Source of the DNA: a bacterium | GTDB taxonomy: Bacteria > Armatimonadota > Zipacnadia > Zipacnadales > Zipacnadaceae | Reading direction: 5' to 3' | Assembly: GCA_030603495.1 (NCBI GenBank) | Contig: JAUVXR010000002.1 | Location: 62,001-126,000 of the forward strand | DNA: 64,000 nucleotides | Shown here: positions 24,018 through 31,021 of the stretch, one piece after another | How the letters are laid out: every line of letters begins with the position of its first letter | Numbering within the stretch: position 1 is the first letter of the stretch | The notes under the pieces: model-generated | What the model was told of the DNA's origin: nothing | The model's input: only the letters and a program-made list of their open reading frames with translations | Databases searched by the model: none | Position numbers and translations under genes: made by a program

Positions 24018-24095
24018 CACTTCGCCCCCCTTGAATCTGAGAGATTGTCGCCAGCACCCACTACTTTCGCCGCGCTGGACGCAAGGTCCTGCTGC

Positions 24096-24238
24096 TCAGC
24101 CGGGGGCCGGCAACTGCTTGAAAAATTCGCGGAGGGGGGGACGCAGGTCGGGGTCAAGGTAATCGAAGTTCACGCCCCGGTCGGTAATCTCCCCGAACTC
24201 CGGCTCGGTCACGCTCAGCAGCTCCTCGCCCAGCCCCC
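24096..24238 (-). pseudogene. Duplicated 3' end of the neighbouring DUF2254-like gene
   Basis: This 143-base stretch is about 90% identical to 24558-24700, the last 48 codons of the next gene, and still reads LGEELLSVTEPEFGEITDRG ... LREFFKQLPAPG-stop. The rest of the gene is missing. A further 25-base trace of the same sequence (GLGEELL) lies at 23394-23421. Confidence 0.8.
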
Positions 24239-24557
24239 GATTGTCCTGTCGCTGCCGCCTAGTTGTCAAGGTTCACGGATTGGTCTCATTGTTTCACCTC
24301 CTTCCTGTCTTTGTGAACCGTTACCTCAGTGTTTACGCTTGCGCTCCCGCTCCTGCTTCTGTTCTTCACGTCGTTTCTTTGCCCTTTTCACTCTCTTCGC
24401 GCCCTTGCCTGCCACTGCTCTCACCTCAATTCGTCGGCCACAGTTAAGTACAACATCAGACCTACCCAAACGACACCTCAGAAGTAATAGCTGCGTATAA
24501 TCGCTTTCATAACCGGCAACCCCCTTCCGCTTCTTTCCGCCCGAAAGCCCCTGCTCA
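24239..24557. other. Intergenic region; possible very small basic ORF
   Basis: Between the duplicated fragment and the intact gene. The minus strand contains GAGGTGA followed by GTG and about 29 codons reading AGKGAKRVKRAKKRREEQKQ and on to a lysine/arginine-rich end. I do not claim it as a gene. No RNA gene seen. Confidence 0.25.
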
Positions 24558-26093
24558 TCAGCCGGACGGCGGCAACTGCTTGAGCAATTCGCGGAGGGGA
24601 GGGCGTAGGTCGGGGTCAAGGTAATCGAAGTTCACGCCCCGGTCGGTAATCTCCCAGAACTCCGGCTCGGTCACACTCAGCAGCTCCTCGCCCAGCCCAA
24701 CAAGGACATCAGGCTCAACCTGGCGCAGAGCCGCCTGTACCTGCTCCTGCAACGACTCGGCCCCTGCGGACAGATAGAAAGCGCCCAGCGCCAGCCACAT
24801 CTTGTATACACCCGCCAGCGCCTGGCTGAAACCTCGCCTCTGCAGCGCCCCGCCCAACGATAGGAAAGCCGCGAGCAGATCAGCAGTCAGCGGGCAGTCC
24901 TGTTGATAGGCCACGCGATTGAGGACTTGCAAGTCATAGGCTACCGTCTCGGCGACGAACTGCACCCCCTGGCCCTCCGCGACGGGGGCATAGTAGCACA
25001 GATGCTGGCTGATGCGGACGGCCAGTTCCGGCCGGGAGTCTACCAGGTATTCAGCGAGGCTGCGATACTCGGCCAGCAGATTATAGATGATACCCTTTTG
25101 CCGGCTATTTATCGCCTCGCGCAGGAAGGTGTTGAAGTGCTTCACCACCAGCTCTACCACGGTATCATCGCCGGCGGACAGAGCGCTTTCCCCCAGACGC
25201 CGGGCGCTTACTGCTACCGCCGTCGCCACCTCCCGAGAGCCTCCCAGAGACGAGCTGAAGATGCCCTGCAGCTCGCGGAGCACCTTGACCTCCACCCAAC
25301 TGCGTTCCTGCTCAATGCGGCTGACATACTCCTCGGAGGGGCCCAGGAAAATGCCCGGCTCAACGATGAACCACTGCTGGGGCTGCTGCGGCTTGCGCTC
25401 AAGGCAGTTCGCCGAAATATCCATCAGCGCCCAGACGCTGCTGAGCGCGACGCTGGTGTCGTTAATGCGCAGAGAGCCTTTGGCAATATCGCTGATCTGC
25501 TCCAGGCTCTGGCTGAACCGCAGCTTGGGACTGCCCTCGGGAGTCGCCCTGCGGGGGGCCTGCTTCAGACAGCCCAGGGCACGCGATTTTATCTTGCTAA
25601 TGATGCTGGTGGGCGCCAGGAAACTAAACACGAAGAAGATGTACGGGATCAGAGAGGCCAGACAGACCGTCATCAATATCAAGCACGTCAGGATCCCGAA
25701 GCGCGGGCCAAAATCTGGGGTTATCGTGTTGGCGACATAGAAACAGTAGATGATGGTGGATATGAAGACCGCCAGGAGTAGCAGGTTGGCCTTCGCCTCG
25801 ATAAACAGGTCAATCAGCTTGGGGGTGTAACGGCTGGCGGTAAGCTCGACGACGATCAGGGCCAGAGTTATGGTGATAGCCAGCACGGTGCTAAGTGCAC
25901 AGGCGATAGAGGTGAGGGTGTAGCGAGCGGTAGATGGGTCGGCCGCCAGCGACGATTCCGCAAAGTTGCCCGGGAGTTGCTGGCGGGCCAGGTCAACGGT
26001 CTGAATCACCGAGAACAATGCGACAACTACCACCACAATGACAATTGGCACAACTTTGGCCAGCCAGCGGATGCGATGTGATAGGCCTCTCAT
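24558..26093 (-). CDS. DUF2254-like integral membrane protein
   Basis: 511 residues. The N-terminal third has four hydrophobic segments (VVPIVIVVVVVALFSVIQTV; LTSIACALSTVLAITITLAL; NLLLLAVFISTIIYCFYVAN; ILTCLILMTVCLASLIPYIF) with the DUF2254-like pattern IVVELTASRYTPKLIDLFIE between helices 2 and 3. The large soluble C-terminal part is helical (DIAKGSLRINDTSVALSSVW, LLAEYRSLAEYLVDSRPELA). The family is of unknown function. A partial copy of its 3' end lies downstream, so the locus has been duplicated and trimmed. Confidence 0.75.
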   Translation of the reverse strand: MRGLSHRIRWLAKVVPIVIVVVVVALFSVIQTVDLARQQLPGNFAESSLAADPSTARYTLTSIACALSTVLAITITLALIVVELTASRYTPKLIDLFIEAKANLLLLAVFISTIIYCFYVANTITPDFGPRFGILTCLILMTVCLASLIPYIFFVFSFLAPTSIISKIKSRALGCLKQAPRRATPEGSPKLRFSQSLEQISDIAKGSLRINDTSVALSSVWALMDISANCLERKPQQPQQWFIVEPGIFLGPSEEYVSRIEQERSWVEVKVLRELQGIFSSSLGGSREVATAVAVSARRLGESALSAGDDTVVELVVKHFNTFLREAINSRQKGIIYNLLAEYRSLAEYLVDSRPELAVRISQHLCYYAPVAEGQGVQFVAETVAYDLQVLNRVAYQQDCPLTADLLAAFLSLGGALQRRGFSQALAGVYKMWLALGAFYLSAGAESLQEQVQAALRQVEPDVLVGLGEELLSVTEPEFWEITDRGVNFDYLDPDLRPPLRELLKQLPPSG

Positions 26094-26212
26094 TGCTTCA
26101 CCCTTATAAGCAAAAATGCGGCGTTCCTATCACGGTTCGCCGCAGAGCGGAGCATTACCTACCTTAATCAGAGCGAAGAACCGACTGGCTGGGTCGGTTC
26201 ACCAAAGATTGG

Positions 26213-26285
26213 AGGCGGCGGCCGGAATCGAACCGGCGAATAGCGGTTTTGCAGACCGCTGCCTTAACCACTTGGCTACGCCGCC
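26213..26285 (-). tRNA. tRNA-Cys (GCA), CCA encoded
   Basis: Acceptor GGCGGCG/CGCCGCC, anticodon loop CTGCAAA (GCA), T loop GGTTCGATTCC, discriminator T (U73, the tRNA-Cys identity base), CCA encoded. Last gene of a five-tRNA cluster. Confidence 0.96.
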
Positions 26286-26298
26286 CCCGAAATATTGG

Positions 26299-26371
26299 AG
26301 CGGAAGAGGAGATTCGAACTCCCGACCTTCTGCTTGGCAAGCAGATGCTCTACCAACTGAGCTACTTCCGC
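26299..26371 (-). tRNA. tRNA-Gly (GCC), CCA encoded
   Basis: Acceptor GCGGAAG/CTTCCGC, anticodon loop TTGCCAA (GCC), T arm GGAGTTCGAATCTCC, discriminator T, CCA encoded. Confidence 0.96.
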
Positions 26372-26392
26372 ACTTGGTTTTCAACGAATTGG

Positions 26393-26465
26393 AGCGGGAA
26401 AGGGGATTCGAACCCCCGACCCTCAGCTTGGGAAGCTGATGCTCTACCAACTGAGCTATTCCCGC
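26393..26465 (-). tRNA. tRNA-Gly (CCC), CCA encoded
   Basis: Acceptor GCGGGAA/TTCCCGC, anticodon loop TTCCCAA (CCC), T arm GGGGTTCGAATCCCC, discriminator T, CCA encoded. Confidence 0.96.
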
Positions 26466-26550
26466 CCATCGCCACCCGCCGTTACGCCCTTGCCCTTGTC
26501 CTGTCGTTGAGCCTGTTGTTGAACCTGTCGTTGCACCTGCCGTCAAATGG

Positions 26551-26623
26551 TGGGCGGTGCAGGGCTTGAACCTGCGACCTCTTCCGTGTGAGGAAAGCGC
26601 TCTCCCGGCTGAGCTAACCGCCC
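26551..26623 (-). tRNA. tRNA-Val (CAC), CCA encoded
   Basis: Acceptor GGGCGGT/ACCGCCC, anticodon loop CTCACAC (CAC), T arm GCAGGTTCAAGCCCTGC, discriminator A, CCA encoded. Confidence 0.95.
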
Positions 26624-26648
26624 ACTTTGCCGGTCATACTCTAGCTGG

Positions 26649-26733
26649 TGCCGAGGGCGGGATTCGAACCCGCACGAACCTTGCGGTCACTAGCCCCTCA
26701 AGCTAGCGTGTCTGCCAATTCCACCACCTCGGC
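26649..26733 (-). tRNA. tRNA-Leu (GAG), CCA encoded
   Basis: Acceptor GCCGAGG/CCTCGGC, anticodon loop TTGAGGG (GAG), long variable arm with ACCGCAAGGT, T arm GCGGGTTCGAATCCCGC, discriminator A, CCA encoded. First gene of the cluster. Confidence 0.96.
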
Positions 26734-27169: not shown

Positions 27170-28375
27170 CTAGCTGCTTCCTTGCCAAACGCGCTCGAGG
27201 ACGAACCCCCTCGCAGCGTGAAGCGCAGACAAAGCAGAGCGATTGACATCGATGAAGTTGCCAAAATCGCGATCTTGTTCACGCACGCCGAGACGGTGAA
27301 GCTGGTCTATCTCTGCCTGAGCGTCGTCAAGCAAAGCAAGGTGGGCCTCGAACGTCTCTCTGTACGAGCCCCTTGAAGCTAGGGAGCATTGCCTGTGCAG
27401 GCACTGCAAGTAGTGTCGATACGATTGCTGCTCAGAATAGTCTGTAGACGTTGGCTGAGCACCAGAGAAAAGCACGTCAGCATAGTCTGAGCCGAGGTCC
27501 ACGTCGGGCCGAAGCGAATCGAGCGCGCCATCCCTGTAGGCTATGTCCAGGAAAGGCACTTTGAATTCGGACAACGCTTGCGGACAGTAGTACCACTTTG
27601 CCTTGCGCTTTATGTCGCCAGGTTGACGCTCGTGAAACTTCTCAGGCGCGAACGAACGCACATTAAGCCAAGTGCCGGATGCGATAGCGTCCACGCGTGC
27701 TGTAGCGAGGCAGAGCATCTGATGGCTGCCATAACCGAGGAGCACGTCCTTGTCTTGCAGCTTCAACCCAGCGCACAGAATCAGGAGATTGCCGAGCCAC
27801 ATTGAGTCGTCAACTAGGTATTGGGTCGCTGGATGCTCTGGGACGATGTAAACTCCGCCTACATCCCAGGCTTCGGCGGCATTTAGTGCCATCTCAATCT
27901 GATCCTCGAATCGGAGTGCTTCAGCGGAAAGGCACAACGTTGCAATGCGAGGCCTATCGGTTACCAGATTTGCGGCCTCGTCGATGACCGTGCTCTGCAC
28001 CGCCAACCAGTCATCATCGACACGTTCACCATAGAGTCCCGGGACCACGAATCTGTCCGCACACGCTGAGTCGTTCAAAGCCAGAAGACGCTGCAACAAG
28101 TCAACGAGGGCCGAACCTCCATCCAACATGCTTGTGGCGAAGTCGTCAGGCCAATAGTCGTGATTGACAAGTCGATGATGCGTCGCTCGTGGCTCGAAGA
28201 ACTGCGGATCCAGAAGGTTGCGGCCTCCGCATTTCACAATTTCTGAACCGAAGTGTTGGATCTGCTTGCGGGTCAGATCGCGAGGGCTTAGGATTACCGT
28301 AGCCTCTTCCCAACGCTCCAGCAGATGGCGGCAGTGTGCCATCATCCCATAGCCGAGCTGAAGGTAGAGTTCCAC
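27170..28375 (-). CDS. Unknown 401-residue protein, third gene of the nuclease-kinase operon
   Basis: I do not recognise a named family. The sequence has alternating beta/alpha character (EATVILSPRDLTRKQIQHFG, PRIATLCLSAEALRFEDQIE, WDVGGVYIVPEHPATQYLVD, DKDVLLGYGSHQMLCLATAR, VDAIASGTWLNVRSFAPEKF) that suggests a TIM-barrel-like fold. The late 'LLGYGS...A...VDAIASGTW' segment loosely recalls tRNA-guanine transglycosylase-type barrels, but catalytic residues cannot be confirmed. There is no signal peptide or membrane segment, so it is cytoplasmic. It starts 12 bases after the kinase gene stops and is surely co-transcribed with it. The C-terminal 100 residues are helical and may be an interaction domain. 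Confidence 0.7.
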   Translation of the reverse strand: MELYLQLGYGMMAHCRHLLERWEEATVILSPRDLTRKQIQHFGSEIVKCGGRNLLDPQFFEPRATHHRLVNHDYWPDDFATSMLDGGSALVDLLQRLLALNDSACADRFVVPGLYGERVDDDWLAVQSTVIDEAANLVTDRPRIATLCLSAEALRFEDQIEMALNAAEAWDVGGVYIVPEHPATQYLVDDSMWLGNLLILCAGLKLQDKDVLLGYGSHQMLCLATARVDAIASGTWLNVRSFAPEKFHERQPGDIKRKAKWYYCPQALSEFKVPFLDIAYRDGALDSLRPDVDLGSDYADVLFSGAQPTSTDYSEQQSYRHYLQCLHRQCSLASRGSYRETFEAHLALLDDAQAEIDQLHRLGVREQDRDFGNFIDVNRSALSALHAARGFVLERVWQGSS

Positions 28376-28387
28376 GAGCTTGCCTCC

Positions 28388-29257
28388 TTAACTCTCGTCC
28401 AGGTTCATTACCGCGCATATCGCGTCAAACCACTGCTTGGCCTGAGCGGCCGACGGCGGGCGCCGAGAGGGGTACTCATCCATCAGCACGGCAAAGAAGC
28501 CGCCCAATTGATTCTCTGGATCTTCGGGAATCTCAAGCGCCGGAGTGGTCATCTTTTCGGTTCTGCGCAGTATGTCCAATTGATCTCTAGCCCCGTCTGC
28601 GAAAGGATGCACGCCCAAAAGACATTCGTACGCCACCACGCCAATCGCGAACAGGTCCGCACGGATGTCGATCTTCTTCTTCAGATTGCGGAATTGCTCA
28701 GGAGCAGCGTATCCTGGTGTGTGAGGGCCGAACTGCGCTTCTGTCGGCGTTATGGACGTCTTGGCAAGATGCCGGGCGATCCCGAAGTCCAGAAGCCTAA
28801 AAGACGCATCTGGGCAAACCATGATGTTTTCCGGCTTAATGTCTCGATGGACTATTTTCTGTTCCTCCATCGCCACAGCCGCCTCAAGCAATACCCTGAC
28901 CAGTTTCAGAACGGTCGGCGTGCAGAGCCTCTGCTTTGCCTTTAGCTCGTTCCGAAGCGTCACGCCTTCGATGAACTCCTCAACGATGTAGACAGCGCAA
29001 CCGTCGACACGCTCAAATGCTCCCGAACCATATAACCGTGCTGTATTGGGGATTTCACACACTGTTGCCACTTCGACCTCACGTTCCAGTCTCAGTCGTT
29101 CGTCGGAATCCGACTCCGGCAGGACCTTTATCACAACCTTGCCATGGTCCTCGTGCACGCCATAGAAAACTGTCCTCTGTCCGCCGCGATCCAGTAGAGT
29201 AACCGCGCTAGTCTTGGGAATATTGGCCTCAACCTCCTGGGCGTTCATCTCTTGCAT
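28388..29257 (-). CDS. Serine/threonine protein kinase (soluble, single-domain)
   Basis: 289 residues, Hanks-type kinase: Gly-rich loop LLDRGGQRTVFYGV (degenerate), VVIKVLPES with Lys44, IVHRDIKPENIMV with the His-Arg-Asp triad at 137-139 and Asn144, LLDFGIARHL (Asp157), and APEQF. There is no transmembrane helix, PASTA or other sensor domain, unlike the PASTA kinase elsewhere in this window. The gene lies between a PD-(D/E)XK nuclease gene (13 bases upstream) and an unknown large protein (12 bases downstream). Standalone kinases in such tight operons often act as regulators or triggers in phage-defence systems; that role is inferred from context only. Confidence 0.88.
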   Translation of the reverse strand: MQEMNAQEVEANIPKTSAVTLLDRGGQRTVFYGVHEDHGKVVIKVLPESDSDERLRLEREVEVATVCEIPNTARLYGSGAFERVDGCAVYIVEEFIEGVTLRNELKAKQRLCTPTVLKLVRVLLEAAVAMEEQKIVHRDIKPENIMVCPDASFRLLDFGIARHLAKTSITPTEAQFGPHTPGYAAPEQFRNLKKKIDIRADLFAIGVVAYECLLGVHPFADGARDQLDILRRTEKMTTPALEIPEDPENQLGGFFAVLMDEYPSRRPPSAAQAKQWFDAICAVMNLDES

Positions 29258-29269
29258 GGATTTCCCCCG

Positions 29270-29989
29270 TTAACTGCTCTGAAGACGCCGGCCTATCCAT
29301 TCGTTGAACAGCCATGAGCCATAGGAAGCGGGAATGTGGCCCTTTCGAGCGCTCTCCAGGCGACGCACTCGACCGCCGTTGAGCAGTAGTATCCCCACGC
29401 CGGTTCGACGTGAACGGTCCAAAGCCGTACCGCTGGGGCTCTCGATGGGCGACAGGACATAGGATTGTGACGCGAACCACTGGTCAAGCTGGGCTTGCCG
29501 AAAAGCATTGCGCCAGTTCTTCATTTTCGCTTCCACAGCCACAATTGAACGGAGACCGAACACCCATTTGAGGGGCTTGGGCATCCATTTGCCTCCCGAT
29601 CGCGTGATCATATTGGCATCAAGGAGCCTCTCCAGCGTGCCCAGAAGTGTTCTTGGGTCGACACCAAGCGCGCCAATCAACATGCGCACATCGGCACCCT
29701 TCACACCCACAAGATGATGCATCACCTTGAGATCCACTGGCTTGAGTTCTAGTCGTGTCGCTGGCCAGCGAAAGGCCCTTGGCATATATTGGACAGCAAC
29801 AAGATCAGGGAATCCACTGTCCATCTGAGGCTCATGGAAAAGCGCTACATCGCCCTTCTGCCACCGGAAGCAAGCAGGGACAAACTCCTTGAAGTCCTCA
29901 ACTAGCTCAGCTTCGGGTCCCGCTGCCCCGTTGCGGGCCGCGAGGCCAATGCCGGGATTGCTTCCCCGGAATTCGATGATGTTCATCAT
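29270..29989 (-). CDS. PD-(D/E)XK nuclease-like protein with inserted winged helix
   Basis: Start MMNIIEFRGSNP chosen for AAGGAG 4-7 bases upstream. The restriction-endonuclease-like core is readable: conserved Glu in helix 1 (GPEAELVEDFKEF), Asp62 in SGFPDLVAVQY, the E-x-K pair Glu153/Lys155 in SIVAVEAKMKNW, then the family's NAFRQAQLDQWFASQSYVLS. Between the Asp and the Glu-x-Lys lies a winged-helix-like stretch (residues 85-135: LKVMHHLVGVKGADVRMLIG ... LLGTLERLLDANMITRSGGK). The fold predicts DNA binding and cleavage or at least recognition. It is the first gene of a three-gene operon with a kinase and an unknown protein. Confidence 0.75.
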   Translation of the reverse strand: MMNIIEFRGSNPGIGLAARNGAAGPEAELVEDFKEFVPACFRWQKGDVALFHEPQMDSGFPDLVAVQYMPRAFRWPATRLELKPVDLKVMHHLVGVKGADVRMLIGALGVDPRTLLGTLERLLDANMITRSGGKWMPKPLKWVFGLRSIVAVEAKMKNWRNAFRQAQLDQWFASQSYVLSPIESPSGTALDRSRRTGVGILLLNGGRVRRLESARKGHIPASYGSWLFNEWIGRRLQSS

Positions 29990-30062
29990 CAGCTCCTTCT
30001 TTACCATAGCACTCCTATTTATGGCTTGTCAACACGCAGGTAACGTACACCCAGACGCCTGA

Positions 30063-30703: not shown

Positions 30704-31021
30704 TCAGCCAGAGCGGGAGCGGAGGCCAAGCAGCAAGCCGAGCAGAAAACCGACGGCCATGGGAAGATTGTAGGCGAGCGCGCTGACCCCGGCTTGCAGC
30801 GCATCCCCAGCCAGACCCGGGACGGGCTTCAAATGCTCAAAAAAGGCCGCCCAGTCCCACTCGACCAGACCGTAGTAGCCGAGGATCTGGACCGCGATGA
30901 ACAGGACAACAACCAGACAGCCCAGCGCCCGTGCTGCCGACTTCAATGCCAGCACGGCCAGCCAGCCCAGCAGTATGCCGAGCGCTGCGCTTACTATGAT
31001 TGAGACTACGTAACTGGGCAT
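30704..31021 (-). CDS. FUN14-domain membrane protein
   Basis: 105 residues, with two N-terminal hydrophobic helices (VVSIIVSAALGILLGWLAVL; ALGCLVVVLFIAVQILGYYG), a conserved 'GLVEWDWAAFFEHL' segment, and a C-terminal Gly-rich helix (NLPMAVGFLLGLLLGLR). This is the FUN14 pattern known from small bacterial and archaeal membrane proteins of unknown function. The start ATG is clear; a GGGAG-like site is not obvious. Confidence 0.75.
   Translation of the reverse strand: MPSYVVSIIVSAALGILLGWLAVLALKSAARALGCLVVVLFIAVQILGYYGLVEWDWAAFFEHLKPVPGLAGDALQAGVSALAYNLPMAVGFLLGLLLGLRSRSG

Follow-up and report, generated by a model that had tools for sequence, protein, structure and literature searches.

The window (the whole stretch of bacterial DNA analysed here, 64,000 nucleotides long) encodes a trio of adjacent genes that forms a real co-inherited module and that is mobile. 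Its products are a putative PD-(D/E)XK-type nuclease, a Hanks-type Ser/Thr protein kinase, and a 401-residue protein with the predicted fold of tRNA-guanine transglycosylases (TGTs). A TGT fold, Hanks-kinase signalling, and a nuclease would thus be joined in one small portable operon of bacteria and archaea. Since the three genes move together in both domains, carried by phages, plasmids, and conjugative elements, they probably constitute an undescribed conflict system; we give about an even chance to a horizontally mobile module used in conflicts with phages or other mobile elements. If it acts in defence, the immune repertoire would gain an undescribed protein family and possibly a nuclease controlled by phosphorylation, and the trio would be relevant to the recurrence of kinases in immune systems.

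A Co-Inherited Three-Gene Unit

Homologous loci were gathered starting from the 401-residue protein, and the count comprises 16 divergent loci carrying this protein whole, the window included. The phylum of the window contributes, besides the window itself, the loci L032 (genome G088), L033 (G214), L068 (G007), L069 (G283), and L070 (G274). A flavobacterial element is represented by L006, whose near-identical copies L007–L009 were not counted separately, while L030 (G438), L031 (G554), and L071 (G936) came from searching the phylum and the order to which the flavobacterial genome belongs. The set is completed by the viral contigs L011, L012, L014, and L015 (L013 is near-identical to L012) and by two plasmid-borne copies, one from the haloarchaeal Natribaculum (L010) and one from the betaproteobacterial Polaromonas (L035).

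All three genes stand side by side in 16/16 of these divergent loci, bacterial and archaeal, at a median pairwise identity of only 19–27%. One more locus (L034), beyond the 16 and cut by a contig end, still has all three. A first-pass annotation of the window had made its proposal of a new module depend on whether homologues of the three genes are found together elsewhere, and they are, the trio being complete throughout the set. The pairwise distances of the three proteins are correlated (Mantel rho 0.53–0.60, p ≤ 0.0002, 16 loci), as expected of genes moving together. Gene order and orientation vary among loci, with nuclease–kinase–TGT-fold found in most; in L030, L031, L069, and L071, the kinase and TGT-fold genes stay together, and the nuclease gene is on the opposite strand. 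The partial matches in L005 and L067 are weak (38–75 residues), and neither a kinase nor a nuclease is encoded within ~1.5 kb of them; both were regarded as remnants or chance matches.

In the window, the three genes are packed on the minus strand into a compact operon of 2.8 kb (Table 1), as the first-pass annotation had described. That annotation gave gap sizes of 13 and 12 bases, of which only the latter stands, as both intergenic gaps measure 12 bases.

In two near-identical viral contigs, a small gene that was assigned by eye as RHH-like overlaps the start of the nuclease gene (Table 1); its product is a possible autoregulator.

Table 1. Positions of the trio, its neighbours, and associated genes in the window and in homologous loci.
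Feature	Sequence	Position	Strand	Remarks
Three packed ORFs of the trio	Window	27170-30007	minus	
Putative PD-(D/E)XK-type nuclease gene	Window	29270-30007	minus	245 aa; alternative start 29989 = 239 aa; Shine-Dalgarno-like sequence ahead of both starts (30007 and 29989)
Soluble Hanks-type Ser/Thr protein kinase gene	Window	28388-29257	minus	289 aa; PF00069
TGT-fold protein gene	Window	27170-28375	minus	401 aa; predicted structure
Five-tRNA cluster (Cys, Gly, Gly, Val, Leu)	Window	26210-26733	minus	Edge of variable region
FUN14-family membrane protein gene	Window	30704-31021		Adjoins trio
12-base tandem repeats	Window	26500-26539		Between tRNA-Gly and tRNA-Val genes
DUF2254 gene	Window	24558-26093		
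Duplicated 3' end of DUF2254 gene	Window	24090-24240 and 24545-24700		~50-codon fragment, 87% identity
PP2C gene	L030	9745-10404		Overlaps nuclease gene by a few bases
PP2C gene	L014	4990-5733		
PP2C gene	L071	9673-10356		Overlaps nuclease gene by a few bases
RHH-like gene	L012	6131-6328		Overlaps nuclease start
RHH-like gene	L013	6131-6328		Overlaps nuclease start
Very diverged trio locus	L069	6663-13918		

The Putative PD-(D/E)XK-Type Nuclease

Residues E32, D68, E159, K161, and Q171 of the nuclease are found in every one of the 16 homologues, E59 is found in all but one (15/16), and the E…D…(E/D)xK…Q active-site pattern of the PD-(D/E)XK superfamily is present. Residues are numbered on the 245-residue form, in which D68 and E159-A-K161 correspond to the Asp62 and Glu153-x-Lys155 on which the first-pass annotation had based its PD-(D/E)XK call; that signature is preserved across the 16 homologues. 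The winged helix that the same annotation saw inserted between the catalytic halves was placed by structure comparison at residues ~80–150, between D68 and E159, where the matches are ArsR/MarR winged helices. The spacing from D to ExK is ~90 residues in 13 homologues with this winged helix and 13–26 residues in the three from which it is absent.

The predicted structure of the nuclease (pLDDT 74, pTM 0.61) has solid matches to the winged helix only. For the core, the VIA-align and Foldseek structure searches gave no significant fold match, and that VIA-align listed no restriction-enzyme fold does not count against one; Foldseek gave weak matches to VC1899 and Card1, both with a restriction-endonuclease-like domain. 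Similarly, the nuclease and the homologues tested have no significant catalytic-family match in Pfam, NCBIfam, PHROGs, or PADLOC, while some homologues match winged-helix models weakly. It is the conservation of the motif that points to a PD-(D/E)XK core.

The Kinase and an Occasional Phosphatase

The window kinase matches PF00069 (Pfam, E 2.9e-32), and its residues K44, E60, HRD 137–139, N144, and D157/G159 are invariant in 16/16 loci. No domain besides the kinase domain was found in it, in agreement with its earlier description as a soluble Hanks kinase with intact catalytic residues and no sensor. A PDB profile search identified PknB/StkP-type kinases as its closest solved structures. Against the PADLOC models of PD-T4-6, the window kinase reaches up to 154 bits, and the same models score the general kinase domain too. 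A Hanks kinase is the feature that the trio shares with PD-T4-6, a single-gene system, and with other single-kinase defence proteins in PADLOC.

A PP2C phosphatase gene adjoins the trio in only three loci (L014, L030, and L071; Table 1), and no such gene adjoins it in the window. The PP2C of the trio loci matches the PADLOC candidate PDC-M21C. The suggestion made in the first-pass annotation, that the kinase could gate the nuclease or the third protein, fits both the intact kinase at every locus and the PP2C at three.

The Protein with a Predicted TGT Fold

The 401-residue protein and the homologues tested match no family in Pfam, NCBIfam, PHROGs, or PADLOC. When its AlphaFold2 model (pLDDT 79, pTM 0.83) was compared with the PDB using VIA-align, all 50 matches listed were TGTs of archaeal, eukaryotic, and bacterial origin (Z 18.3–20.3, ~300 residues), the best among those listed being the archaeosine TGT 1iq8 (Z 20.3). 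Plain Foldseek ranked a TGT only fifth, among other TIM barrels, so the TGT assignment comes from VIA-align. Structure prediction followed by these comparisons thus gives a predicted (β/α)8 TGT fold, at ~10% identity, to a protein that the first-pass annotation had left without a family.

No resemblance to TGTs was detected in sequence. The TGT family PF01702 has no match in 12 members at E ≤ 10, a profile–profile comparison of the family with TGT gave an hhalign probability of 0.2%, and a PDB sequence search with the profile of the TGT-fold family returned weak spurious matches only, mostly to antibodies. The CxCxxC…H zinc site is absent, and the 16-member alignment has no conserved Cys. Asp56 (D56), in contrast, is invariant in 16/16; located at the end of strand 3, it would occupy the position of the TGT general-base Asp, as judged from strand order in the model. 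An Asp at the position of the TGT nucleophile in strand 8, likewise placed by strand order, is found in only 8/16. This combination makes the fold TGT-like and canonical TGT chemistry doubtful. The protein further differs from TGTs in always standing beside a kinase and a nuclease, and the window's own genome encodes an ordinary TGT elsewhere. The NCBIfam model for DpdA (NF041059) has no match among 12 members, and in the window's genome only the ordinary TGT scores against it, weakly. Identification of the 401-residue protein as an ordinary TGT or as DpdA was rejected, as neither profile matched.

Mobility and Distribution

At least 8/16 loci lie on phage contigs, plasmids, or integrative/conjugative elements (ICEs). 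The trio was found on five IMG/VR viral contigs (L011–L015, with L013 repeating L012), where its neighbours include a tape-measure-like protein upstream in L012, baseplate proteins in L014 and, weakly, in L015, and a phage-type repressor and a sigma factor in L011. L071 belongs to an ICE with a TraG-type coupling protein and DUF5712, and four flavobacterial genera have a common 14-kb segment of 93–94% identity with integrase genes beside it. Within the window's phylum, the trio occurs in 7/291 genomes, and in 0/6 other genomes searched of the window's genus. Two different queries found nothing among GenBank phages, and scans of viral contigs with the haloarchaeal (L010) and Polaromonas proteins were likewise negative.

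Defence genes adjoin only a few trio loci. A type IIG/DrmMI-like methyltransferase gene lies near the Natribaculum copy, an AbiEi-like gene within the flavobacterial element L006, and a C5-cytosine methylase near the trio on the phage contig L011, while the window's own locus is in no obvious defence island. The earlier claim of a defence-type module is thus supported in part: the mobility and co-inheritance of the trio and the DrmMI-like neighbour speak for it, and the small number of loci with such neighbours speaks against it.

Proposed Mechanism and Alternatives

We infer the anti-phage or anti-element role, the order of signalling, and the nucleic-acid target of the TGT-fold protein as follows. 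The proposed chain builds on what stays constant, namely an intact kinase, an intact nuclease motif, and a TGT-fold core that does not vary. The TGT-fold protein would be the recognition or trigger part, binding a nucleotide base of DNA or tRNA and perhaps acting on it. The kinase would turn the trigger signal into phosphorylation of a partner, and the PD-(D/E)XK protein, usually equipped with its own winged helix for nucleic-acid binding, would cut nucleic acid as the effector. A PP2C that adjoins the trio may reset or restrain the kinase. A more specific proposal, which we advance tentatively and with low expectation, is a novel form of defence built on a TGT-fold enzyme that no longer has zinc or the usual nucleophile. 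This enzyme would provide the trigger by recognising or removing a base in invader DNA or host tRNA, and protein phosphorylation would couple it to a separate PD-(D/E)XK nuclease. With 16 aligned loci, a set of conserved residues (D56; K161; kinase HRD), and a compact operon, the trio lends itself directly to testing.

TGT is a tRNA-anticodon-loop enzyme, and a protein predicted to share its fold might recognise tRNA and bring the nuclease or the kinase to it, stopping translation on infection. Such a tRNA-directed abortive module is unlikely, as the PD-(D/E)XK motif is typical of DNA cleavage and a winged helix is usual in the nuclease; the tRNA genes adjoining the trio in the window do not count as evidence.

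Mobile carriage and a nuclease equally fit toxin–antitoxin or element-maintenance roles. The trio could be a phosphorylation switch, either a toxin–antitoxin or one similar to KKP, that stabilises or regulates a prophage, plasmid, or ICE, with defence a side effect or absent. KKP is a prophage kinase–kinase–phosphatase toxin–antitoxin module that protects from phages (PMC11341870), and the trio resembles it in its phage-borne Ser/Thr kinase and in the PP2C of three loci; carriage on phage contigs, plasmids, and an ICE also speaks for such a switch. However, KKP has two kinases and a PP2C, whereas the trio has one kinase and an optional phosphatase, and its nuclease and TGT-fold protein are always present. 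Some chromosomal copies of the trio, moreover, have no element genes nearby, and this explanation, too, appears unlikely.

Dpd-like restriction–modification, in which the TGT-fold protein would mark host DNA by putting a deazaguanine in place of guanine, the nuclease would cut unmarked DNA, and the kinase would regulate, is quite improbable. DpdA is homologous to TGT and belongs to a defence system, and both Dpd and BREX-related capture (BRC) systems contain TGTs (PMC12839542); a TGT-type protein beside a nuclease in a defence-like setting is, by predicted fold, what the trio offers as well. On the other hand, the 401-residue protein has no sequence similarity to DpdA or TGT, no partners of the DpdB/DpdC type were seen, a kinase being present instead, and there is no helicase or ATPase partner. 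Full-length QueC (preQ0 synthesis) was found in 6/11 trio genomes, including that of the window, a count to be read with the incompleteness of some assemblies and possible salvage in mind; G291, G438, G936, G007, and G214 gave only partial weak matches. Thus, the loss of the zinc-site and nucleophile motifs and the existence of trio genomes without full-length QueC weaken the Dpd-like explanation.

It is very unlikely that the trio is an ordinary regulatory or repair operon of the chromosome with no part in mobile-element conflict: L030, L031, and L070 do lie among housekeeping genes, but the trio is very patchy in two domains, has near-identical copies in different genera, and is carried by phages and plasmids, and a metabolic or housekeeping operon was rejected as the main reading because of this patchy, mobile distribution.

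Relation to Described Systems

The first-pass annotation knew of no described system with this exact trio, and we found none in PADLOC 2.0, NCBIfam, or the open-access literature searched, although a prior description elsewhere is possible. BRC systems likewise have a TGT domain in a defence locus and are built on PglZ, a BrxC-like ATPase, and HerA (PMC12839542); none of these, nor other BREX core genes, was recognised among the trio neighbours listed, read by eye, or scanned. A PD-(D/E)XK (NERD) nuclease and an S/T kinase are fused in BREX type 2 PglW and some DndF proteins (PMC12839542, PMC10853773). The trio resembles the N-terminal parts of these proteins in pairing the two activities, there within one defence protein, and differs in its separate small proteins, another nuclease type, a TGT-fold partner, and the lack of PglZ.

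Setting of the Trio in the Window

The tRNA cluster that the first-pass annotation noted beside the trio adjoins it on one side and is a real synteny breakpoint: synteny with G281, a genome of the same genus, ends at ~26772, some 40 bp beyond the tRNA-Leu gene. The opposite flank, where the same annotation placed gene remnants, holds a single 126-residue ORF without a family, followed by the FUN14 gene (Table 1). GC3 is 0.61–0.63 in the trio genes versus 0.66–0.77 in their neighbours. The breakpoint, the patchy occurrence, and the low GC3 agree with the earlier description of the locus as a typical place for acquired modules, but no att-type repeat was found around the trio. A tRNA att-site island was rejected, with both such a repeat and a clean empty site absent, the latter because G281 has other genes past the tRNA cluster and the right flank differs throughout.

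Two minor features lie on the tRNA side of the trio. Short tandem repeats separate a tRNA-Gly gene from the tRNA-Val gene, and the 3' end of the DUF2254 gene is duplicated downstream of it as a fragment (Table 1). A DUF2254 3'-end fragment occupies the same position in G281; one also occurs in G283, which belongs to the same family but to a different genus, and there it is on a separate contig. The very diverged trio of G283 (L069) has a DUF2254 homologue at a distance of ~3 kb and a tRNA-Leu gene at ~1 kb, a setting that resembles that of the window and possibly marks a recurrent insertion site.
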